Source of the DNA: an uncultured Spirochaetales bacterium
GTDB lineage: Bacteria; Spirochaetota; Spirochaetia; Sphaerochaetales; Sphaerochaetaceae
Assembly: GCA_902773355.1 (NCBI GenBank)
Contig: CACYEI010000026.1
Span: 1-49,458 of the forward strand
Length of the DNA stretch: 49,458 nt
Direction: 5' to 3'
The translations under genes were made by a program, and so were the position numbers. This document shows, in pieces, positions 3,764 through 6,198 of this stretch. A model generated the notes under the pieces. It made no database searches. It was not told where the DNA came from and was given only the letters and a program-made list of their open reading frames with translations. Positions within the stretch are counted from its first letter, which is position 1; the number at the start of each line of letters is the position of its first letter.

Positions 3764-5062
3764 TTACAAGAACATGCACATATAAACTGGGAAGTACACT
3801 GTTTTATCTTTAACGGTAACGTTATAATTATTAAAAACAATAGCTTTATCAATTTCAAAATCTTTTATATTTAATAGATTATTTAATGCACTGTGAAAAG
3901 TGTAATTTTTTCCACTTTTTATTTCTAATGGTAAAACTTTTCCCATATTTTCTAACAAAAAATCTATCTCACCTAATTTATGACTATTGTAGAAATATAA
4001 CTTATATCCATGTGCATATAATTCCTGAGCTACAGCATTTTCATATACTCCACCATAATTTATTTTTTTAGTATCCAATAACAAATCTAATTTTAAGTTT
4101 TTTCCATACATACATGTAAGAAGCCCAATATCTGAGTAATATAATTTAATTAAGGAACTTTTTTTGTTTAATAAAAGTGGTATCTTAGGTTCTGTTGAAT
4201 TATATACTGAAATGATAACTCCAGCATTATCCAACCATAAAAAACTGTCTTCCATTCTCTCAGCTTTTAAACCCTTTTTTAAATCCGCATAAATAAAACG
4301 TCTGTTTTGTTTTAGTAACTGAGATGGTATTAAATCATAAATATTTTTTAAAATGAGTTTTTTACTCTCCATTTCATATTTAGTGAAATCTCGTTTGTAT
4401 TGAAAAATAACATTTTCCTGAATGTTATAAACTTCACTAATATTATTTGTATTAAAATACTCATATACTGCAGCAGGCATTCCTCCTATAATTAGATATT
4501 TTCTAAAATGCCTTAACATTACAGAATGAACTGTATCTGAAACAGGTTTTTCATCCATGAAACAATCATTTAAATAACTAATGGATTTATCTGTTATATC
4601 AGAAGCCCAAAGAAATTCCTGAAAATCTAAAGGAAACATCTGTATTTCATCCAAATAACCTACTGGTACAGATCTTAAATCATTTAGCTCTATGCCTAAA
4701 AGAGAACCGCTTAGAATATATTTGTAACTTCCTTCATCTACCCAAAATTTTATTTTAGTAAGTATATCTTTACACTGCTGAACTTCATCAATAAAAATAA
4801 TACTTTCATTTTTTTTAAATACATAACCAACTGCAAGTGACAGATTTAATTCTAAATCAGTTACGGAATTACTTTCTGCAAACACGTTAACCAAAAAAGG
4901 TTTTTCTATTAAATTTATCTCCAGGTAATTACAATTAAGACTTTTTAAACATTCTCTAATAATGAAAGTCTTTCCAACCTGTCTAGCACCACTTACAAGT
5001 AGAGCATTTTTACCATATTTAATCCATTTAATTATTTTTTCAGATGCTTTTCTCTTTAACAT
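3764..5062 (-). CDS. AAA ATPase with DUF4143 and nuclease-like C-terminus
   Basis: 432-residue ATPase of the AAA_14/DUF4143 family, common in gut and oral bacteria but without a firm function. Walker A is GARQVGKT at residues 25-32, followed by a Walker B-type IIFIDEVQQ, a GGMPAAV segment opening the DUF4143 region, and near the C-terminus GEIDFLL...LEIKSGK. The latter gives D367, E380 and K382 in a PD-(D/E)XK-like arrangement. No partner gene is nearby; ychF lies downstream after a 57-nt gap. No Shine-Dalgarno is evident. The upstream region carries a 32-bp tandem repeat with two -35/-10 pairs, unlike any other gene here. A role in defence or mobile-DNA handling has been suspected for the family but cannot be shown from this sequence. 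Confidence 0.88.
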   Translation of the reverse strand: MLKRKASEKIIKWIKYGKNALLVSGARQVGKTFIIRECLKSLNCNYLEINLIEKPFLVNVFAESNSVTDLELNLSLAVGYVFKKNESIIFIDEVQQCKDILTKIKFWVDEGSYKYILSGSLLGIELNDLRSVPVGYLDEIQMFPLDFQEFLWASDITDKSISYLNDCFMDEKPVSDTVHSVMLRHFRKYLIIGGMPAAVYEYFNTNNISEVYNIQENVIFQYKRDFTKYEMESKKLILKNIYDLIPSQLLKQNRRFIYADLKKGLKAERMEDSFLWLDNAGVIISVYNSTEPKIPLLLNKKSSLIKLYYSDIGLLTCMYGKNLKLDLLLDTKKINYGGVYENAVAQELYAHGYKLYFYNSHKLGEIDFLLENMGKVLPLEIKSGKNYTFHSALNNLLNIKDFEIDKAIVFNNYNVTVKDKTVYFPVYMCMFL

Positions 5063-5071
5063 TTATTATAT

Positions 5072-5151
5072 TTTTTCCACTTTTTCAATCAATTTTAAGC
5101 CAATTTTTCCACTTTTTCAATCAATTTTAAGCCAATTTTTCCACTTTTTCA
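5072..5151. repeat. 32-bp tandem repeat, 2.5 copies, upstream of AAA/DUF4143 gene
   Basis: Two perfect 32-bp units at 5072-5103 and 5104-5135, plus a 16-bp partial copy at 5136-5151. Each unit contains tttttccactttttcaatc followed by aattttaagccaa. It directly precedes the ATPase start codon at 5062. Confidence 0.95.
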
Positions 5152-5152
5152 G
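5092..5152 (-). promoter_or_regulatory. Duplicated sigma-70-type promoter for the AAA/DUF4143 gene
   Basis: On the minus strand each repeat unit reads TTGAAA, 17 bp, TAAAAT. The proximal copy has its -35 at 5115-5120 and -10 at 5092-5097. The distal copy has CTGAAA at 5147-5152 and -10 at 5124-5129. The proximal promoter would start transcription about 20-25 nt before the ATG. The match is by eye; no transcript data. Confidence 0.55.
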
Positions 5153-5182: not shown

Positions 5183-5398
5183 ATGAATTTTTCCTCTCTT
5201 ATCTTCCCCTTCTTATTCCTACCTATAGCTTTTATTATTTACCATTTAAGTAAAGATAAATATCAAAATACAAACTATGAACTTGTACAGAAAAGTTTTA
5301 TAGAAGAATATGAGCCAGATGCAGTAATACTAATTTGGTATCCTAGACATCTTGAGTCCAAATTTGGACGTTTTGCAGGTAATACCGACACTGAATAA
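5183..5398 (+). pseudogene. Fusion relic: MBOAT acyltransferase N-terminus joined to a DHHW/SGNH-like C-terminus
   Basis: A 71-codon open frame. Its first ~25 residues (MNFSSLIFPFLFLPIAFIIY) look like the start of membrane-bound O-acyltransferases of the AlgI/DltB type, which typically begin with an FSSLxFLFLFLP hydrophobic helix. The remainder (FIEEYEPDAVILIWYPRHLE) resembles the C-terminal end of the DltD/AlgX-like or DHHW secreted partner that usually follows an MBOAT gene. The simplest reading is that an mboat-partner pair collapsed by an in-frame deletion, leaving both termini fused. A genuine small membrane protein cannot be excluded. It lies between the divergent ATPase promoter and the UPF0158 gene, with no Shine-Dalgarno. 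Confidence 0.45.
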
Positions 5399-5421: not shown

Positions 5422-6198
5422 TTATAAATATTCCAGATCTGAAGTATCTTCTGGTGATATGGTGTGATTTGTAACTTCTATCTTGTCCTTATTTTTATCA
5501 AATACATATATGTTAGTAACTCTTTTAGATGATAAAAATGTTAGAAAAGCCTTTTTTATATTAATTTTTATATAATCAACATTAGAAATAAAAGAAGACT
5601 TAAAAATATATGCTGTTTTTTTTCCATCATCCACTGAATAAATAAAATATCCTACAAGCTTATCTTCATAAATGACGCTAAATTTATATAAAGCGCTAAA
5701 TAATTCATTAAACTTATTTAAAAAGTCATCTTCAAAATCATAAAAAACCAATATTTCATCTTTACATATAAAATCATTACAATCAGGTAAATTTGATAAT
5801 AATACATACTGAATATCTGATATGGCTTTTCCAAACCAGTCAGAAATATATTCCGCCATCTTTTTCTCTTTAAATTTATACCAATCATTAGTTAAATCAA
5901 GTGCCTTAATTTTTTCTTTGAATAATTTAAAAACCCCATGATTACCTGATTTAAAAACATTAGAAAGATCTTTATTATTTGTTTCTTTAGAAAATGACAA
6001 CATTAAAGAATAACCATCATTAGTTGTCCAAGATGGAAGATTTAGAGCATATGGCTGTTCAAATTCATCAAGTTTTGATTCTAAAACACATTTTCTACTT
6101 AATAAATCAAATACATAAACATTTTCCTGATCTTCCAATGCAAAAATAATATCTGAAATAATTGAAGGAGTTAAAGAAAAAAAATCAAAAGAAGACAT
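5422..6198 (-). CDS. UPF0158-family protein with acetyltransferase-like C-terminus
   Basis: 258 residues. The N-terminal ~150 residues match the UPF0158 pattern: FALEDQEN near residue 20, LPSWTTNDGYSLM from 54, then a GVFKLFKEKI and WYKFKEKKM region. The function of this family is unknown. The C-terminal ~100 residues (VIYEDKLVGYFIYS, then NIKKAFLTFL) look like the second half of a GNAT acetyltransferase fold, but no firm acetyl-CoA motif is seen. The gene follows eno on the same strand. The eno terminator U-tract runs right up to this ATG, and an in-frame TGA lies just upstream, so no earlier start exists. No Shine-Dalgarno, so expression is probably weak, regulated or by read-through. Confidence 0.7.
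   Translation of the reverse strand: MSSFDFFSLTPSIISDIIFALEDQENVYVFDLLSRKCVLESKLDEFEQPYALNLPSWTTNDGYSLMLSFSKETNNKDLSNVFKSGNHGVFKLFKEKIKALDLTNDWYKFKEKKMAEYISDWFGKAISDIQYVLLSNLPDCNDFICKDEILVFYDFEDDFLNKFNELFSALYKFSVIYEDKLVGYFIYSVDDGKKTAYIFKSSFISNVDYIKINIKKAFLTFLSSKRVTNIYVFDKNKDKIEVTNHTISPEDTSDLEYL

Follow-up and report, generated by a model that had tools for sequence, protein, structure and literature searches.

The PDC-S01 ATPase gene in the window, i.e., the whole stretch of 49,458 nucleotides analyzed here, is preceded by a tandem array that, judging from sequence comparison, is probably an autoregulatory three-site operator bound by the downstream ATPase itself. Operator arrays and iterons are well-established elements; what appears to be new is a family-wide array of gene-specific sites, with a near-constant pitch, in front of a single-gene ATPase-nuclease. 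We observe multiple copies of one site at a fixed pitch, overlapping the promoter of the ATPase gene (positioned from consensus only), as well as a predicted DNA-binding domain in the ATPase that covaries with this site, and the simplest reading would be an operator array whose sites are recognized by the winged helix of the same protein, the last of them lying on the core promoter.

The window (GC 30.6%) corresponds to contig C26, part of a 1.18-Mb genome, and its genes are clearly bacterial (LptC/LptA-type, LptB-like ABC, RpoN). No known RNA motifs were found in the window except one tRNA. A 32-bp unit present in 2.5 identical copies, as the initial annotation had described, is confirmed by TRF (5072-5151, period 32, 2.5 copies, 100% match, score 160), and the array is by far the strongest in the window, the second-best scoring 87. 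Exact identity at a shift of 32 extends over 48 bp, compared with 19 bp for the runner-up exact tandem run in the window (lags 10 to 100), which places the array far beyond chance. In minus-strand orientation, the array has the order R-S-R-S-R and consists of three copies of a 16-nt repeat, R (TGAAAAAGTGGAAAAA), and two identical copies of a 16-nt spacer, S (TTGGCTTAAAATTGAT), each of which contains a -10-like TAAAAT (Table 1). DNA matches to the intergenic region of the array in two genomes (G052 and G078) are short, and the G052 match, on inspection, looks like chance. The 14-mer AAAAAGTGGAAAAA of R is also found inside the ATPase gene (3907-3920, minus strand) as the coding sequence of the conserved KSGK motif; this second occurrence is probably due to chance, helped by codon use.

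Table 1. Coordinates of the ATPase gene and of the elements of the upstream array in the window
Feature	Position	Strand	Basis
PDC-S01 ATPase gene: AAA_14, winged helix, and DUF4143 PD-(D/E)xK nuclease, 432 aa	3764..5062	-	Pfam, PADLOC, AF2
Predicted winged-helix region, codons 232-310; divergence tracks R	4133..4369	-	AF2; distance regression
R1 TGAAAAAGTGGAAAAA, first operator-like repeat	5136..5151	-	Exact copy; family-wide three-copy rule
S1 spacer TTGGCTTAAAATTGAT, -10-like TAAAAT at 5129-5124	5120..5135	-	Identical to S2
R2 TGAAAAAGTGGAAAAA; with T5120 gives -35-like TTGAAA (5120-5115)	5104..5119	-	
S2 spacer, TAAAAT at 5097-5092, 17 bp from R2 TTGAAA	5088..5103	-	10/12, consensus only
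R3 TGAAAAAGTGGAAAAA, 9 bp between R3 end and start codon	5072..5087	-	

The ATPase gene is read leftward from an ATG at 5062, and its product matches the PADLOC model for PDC-S01 (PDLC04792) over its full length (residues 1 to 432, E = 1.7e-174). By this match, the gene is a member of PDC-S01 and a phage-defense candidate, and the defense link raised initially thus stands at the candidate level. In the AlphaFold (AF2) model (pLDDT 87), the predicted domains are AAA+ (1-157), a helical linker (158-231), a winged-helix-like domain (about 232-310), and a PD-(D/E)xK-type domain (311-432), with limits set by our reading of the AF2 secondary structure and with a winged-helix loop (258-269) that is poorly modeled. 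The Walker A/B and PD-(D/E)xK residues are intact, and G25xRxxGK31, D92E93, E341, E365/D367, and E380xK382 show little or no variation among relatives. The closest solved folds detected by Foldseek are those of the archaeal AAA+ ATPases SSO1545 (2FNA) and PABY2304 (2QEN), followed by Orc1/Cdc6 bound to origin DNA (2QBY); the sequence search found no solved homologue. Identity reaches 61% to Bacillota relatives and at most 51% within the family to which the genome belongs, and since the nearest relatives were found in Bacillota rather than in its own family, the gene was probably acquired horizontally. Two further PDC-S01 paralogues are present in the same genome, L031 (G000:C1) and L032 (G000:C53), of which one has its own, different array with a 32-bp pitch (AAATTTTCATGAA-like) and one has a reading frame broken by two stops.

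The upstream DNA of most relatives contains two to four spaced direct repeats, which are often, not always, TTGAAAAAGTG-like. We scored 180-bp upstream stretches by their best ungapped self-match at lags of 18 to 60 against dinucleotide shuffles, a test that is independent of any repeat sequence, and located the R copies with an explicit 14-mer chain finder. Self-similarity was significant upstream of 95 of 123 relatives at the 0.05 level (83 at 0.01), whereas about a fifth of the relatives lacked a significant array within the 180 bp scored, and the lag was 32, 33, or 34 in 87 of the 95 (mode 33). Control stretches upstream of other genes in the same genomes were significant in 19 of 105 cases, with scattered lags and one at 32 to 34. 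Similar patterns were obtained with a second, independent set drawn from plasmids, phages, and IMG/VR, from which near-duplicates had been removed (31/35 significant; lag 32 to 34 in 32/35, exactly 33 in 27). This set covers Bacillota, Bacteroidota, Actinomycetota, Fusobacteriota, Pseudomonadota, and Chlamydiota as well as viral contigs, with genera including Vescimonas, Agathobacter, Prevotella, Segatella, Parabacteroides, Collinsella, Fusobacterium, Vibrio, Acinetobacter, Glaesserella, and Criblamydia, so that over both sets the arrangement recurs, with its pitch kept, in at least seven phyla. Three copies are found in 49 of 60 strong arrays, four in 8, and two in 3, given a score cutoff that favors higher copy numbers.

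Within the arrays of the independent set, the mean identity between neighbors is 0.88 for R and 0.45 for the spacer. Near-identical spacers occur in few arrays besides that of the window, which is alone among those tested in having fully identical ones, and this departure from almost all relatives makes the recent duplication proposed initially, or else homogenization, likely. Two units at the window locus each look like a promoter because the spacer has been copied as well; on the operator reading, this doubling is incidental and results from expansion or homogenization of the repeat at this one locus.

The initial annotation read each unit as containing TTGAAA, 17 bp, and TAAAAT. This is exact for the middle unit (5120-5092, minus strand; 10/12 match to the consensus). 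The upstream unit is CTGAAA-17-TAAAAT (5152-5124; 9/12), position 5152 being outside the repeat, and by consensus these two units each have a -35, a 17-bp gap, and a -10. The third half-unit, with TTGAAA at 5088-5083, would have as its 17-bp partner a TAAATG that overlaps the start codon and therefore forms no promoter. Going by consensus match, R2/S2 would be the most plausible promoter of the ATPase gene, and R3 would then fall in the putative 5' UTR; placed between this promoter and the start codon, R3 may strengthen repression or be a mere by-product. We count 51 matches of at least 10/12 in the window, and the 14 promoter-like sites around the locus are no excess over shuffles (18.4 ± 4.2), so that the promoter motif alone is weak evidence, such matches being common in a sequence with 30.6% GC. 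An archaeal promoter reading (TATA/BRE) was dropped, since Lpt, RpoN, and other genes identify the source as a bacterium.

With respect to position, we scored a -10 box when 5 or 6 bases of TATAAT were matched no more than 39 bp after R. Such a box is enriched after the last R of the arrays (36/50 versus about 41% expected), with no enrichment after earlier R copies (62/147 versus about 46% expected; Fisher, P = 3e-4). The last R overlaps the -35, lies in the spacer, or sits just upstream of the -10, depending on the gene, and one single repression geometry does not, therefore, fit all of them.

The sequence of R differs from gene to gene, even between the same-genome paralogues L022 and L031, and with at most one mismatch R is found only in this array in the whole 1.18-Mb genome. 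On this ground, and because hits with up to three mismatches (84) are no more numerous than those of a reversed-pattern control (93), we rejected the idea that R marks a regulon. A significant R downstream of the gene is absent in 16 of 17 relatives; binding sites at transposon ends were likewise rejected, as the copies do not lie at both ends of the gene. Regression of R distances on protein domain distances yields a beta of 0.23 for the winged helix (permutation P = 0.002) and of 0.17 for the linker (P = 0.008), with no signal for the ATPase (-0.03, P = 0.69) or nuclease (0.00, P = 0.45) domains. The sliding-window partial correlation with R peaks at residues 211 to 330 or so at three thresholds with close pairs excluded; the covariation is modest (rho of at most 0.27), with relatedness controlled via overall protein distance only.

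R1 to R3, spaced 32 bp apart, would thus form a three-site operator for the PDC-S01 ATPase gene, in which each R would be bound by the ATPase's own winged helix and neighboring protomers, about three helical turns apart, would bind cooperatively. With the promoter covered by bound protomers, transcription would be repressed, and the gene would be switched on once binding is lost, for instance through titration of the protein or a change in its state during infection. We infer binding by the ATPase, cooperativity, infection-triggered induction, and repression rather than activation, the last because the last R overlaps the core promoter. Points against this reading are the modest covariation, the variable placement of the last R relative to the -10, the position of R3 in the putative 5' UTR of the window gene, and the fifth or so of relatives in which the test detected no array. 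Only tentatively do we extend this to PDC-S01 at large as a self-regulating single-gene system, in which each copy might have a private three-site 33-bp array read by its own ATPase, site specificity might keep paralogues apart, and the array might act as the switch or self-reference that arms the nuclease.

The leading alternative is that the array is a landing or assembly site for the ATPase with no transcriptional role, comparable to Orc/DnaA boxes, plasmid iterons, or a partition centromere. Three protomers would assemble there at a 33-bp pitch and serve in loading, marking, or guarding the locus, or the array would provide a self-reference with which invading DNA is compared. The fixed pitch and copy number and the winged-helix covariation fit it equally well, and it agrees with the Foldseek likeness to origin-bound Orc1/Cdc6 and with the conserved nuclease residues. 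We nevertheless regard it as unlikely, since the array lies directly before the start codon with its last R at the -10 box, as transcription control predicts, and R copies are found neither downstream, in 16 of 17 relatives, nor elsewhere in the genome of the window. That R is the operator of another host regulator or of a phage-encoded factor is highly improbable, because R is gene-specific, differing even among paralogues of one genome, and its divergence follows that of the winged helix of the ATPase itself; such a regulator would need a separate site for each paralogue, and the genome holds no more R sites.

The initial proposal of a duplicated sigma-70 promoter, with copy number setting dosage and slippage acting as a rheostat, draws on the identity of the units, on the TAAAAT that both spacers place 17 bp from TTGAAA or CTGAAA, and on copy numbers that differ among Vibrio plasmids. 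The last point bears out the claim that copy number can change: the plasmid PDC-S01 promoters of Vibrio coralliilyticus OCN008 and OCN014 (L179, L190) have three R copies, and those of Rb102 and Vibrio sp. THAF191c (L184, L185) have one R-like element and a 64-column alignment gap, apparently from recombination between R copies. Selection of the unit as a promoter, in contrast, is not supported by the relatives, which retain R at a pitch of about 33 bp and neither the spacer, which is unrelated between them, nor the -10, which is not enriched after the upstream R copies. Three copies are typical, the third cannot be a promoter, and equal matches are common in this sequence. Among the relatives compared, all from outside the genus, copy number is largely fixed and the units have diverged. 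Promoter dosage is hence not the main point of the array, and we consider this explanation quite improbable. A neutral recent tandem duplication without function would account for units that are perfectly identical, spacer included, and has next to no probability in view of the recurrence in at least seven phyla with a conserved pitch.

The operator reading has several known counterparts. Plasmid Rep iterons and type II partition centromeres (parC/ParR) are made up of short, helically spaced direct repeats that lie next to the gene for the protein that binds them, and often overlap its promoter. The present arrays differ from these in that they usually have three copies at 33 bp, belong mostly to chromosomal single genes, and are accompanied by no replication or partition gene. 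Orc1/Cdc6 and DnaA are AAA+ proteins that bind repeated boxes through a DNA-binding domain, and some are autoregulated. They are similar in that the predicted fold of the ATPase resembles archaeal AAA+ ATPases and Orc1/Cdc6, and different in that the ATPase has a C-terminal nuclease and that its array is confined to the promoter of its own gene, with a gene-specific box sequence. Toxin-antitoxin and defense regulators have autoregulatory operators at their own promoters, and a candidate defense effector gene with an operator at its own promoter is in line with this. Unlike in those systems, there is no separate antitoxin or regulator gene, and the predicted DNA-binding domain is part of the effector.

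The window gene resembles PDC-S01 in its full-length profile match, its domain order, and its conserved Walker and PD-(D/E)xK residues. In one report, PDC-S01 ranks as the fourth most common defense system in prokaryotes, with 29,494 bacterial and 9,986 archaeal cases, and validation is pending for most such candidates (PMC12988326). The portions available of this and a second report on PDC-S01 distribution (PMC12988326, PMC13356809) do not mention an upstream repeat array, and none is described in the literature we found on PDC-S01, DUF4143, COG1373, and SSO1545, a partial coverage that leaves priority unproven. Present before nearly all copies examined, the array gives a direct handle on PDC-S01, as it points to what the predicted DNA-binding domain of the protein probably binds and predicts autoregulation and an oligomer at a 33-bp pitch; for annotators, it is a promoter-side signature of the family.

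Variants of the arrangement were observed in several loci. Two divergent PDC-S01 genes in L012 have one common upstream region with a 33-bp array. In some subfamilies (L127, L129, L133, L189, L210), the repeat looks palindromic (e.g., TGTGAGTATAATCACA), which suggests a different binding geometry. In two Bacteroidota loci (L173, L181), the R core is directly followed by a TAnnTTTG -7-like box (TATATTTG, TATCTTTG), so that the array may adapt to the promoter type of its host.

At the window locus, a 71-codon open reading frame (5183-5398, plus strand; MNFSSLIFPFLFLPIAFIIYHL...) adjoins the array. A Pfam search with it gave no match; its start is reminiscent of MBOAT/AlgI proteins, and it is possibly a fused gene remnant. 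The neighboring 258-aa protein (5422-6198, minus strand), which belongs to no Pfam family, has matches in 34 of 61 genomes of the same family and class, its own included, and these fall mainly in the N-terminal half.
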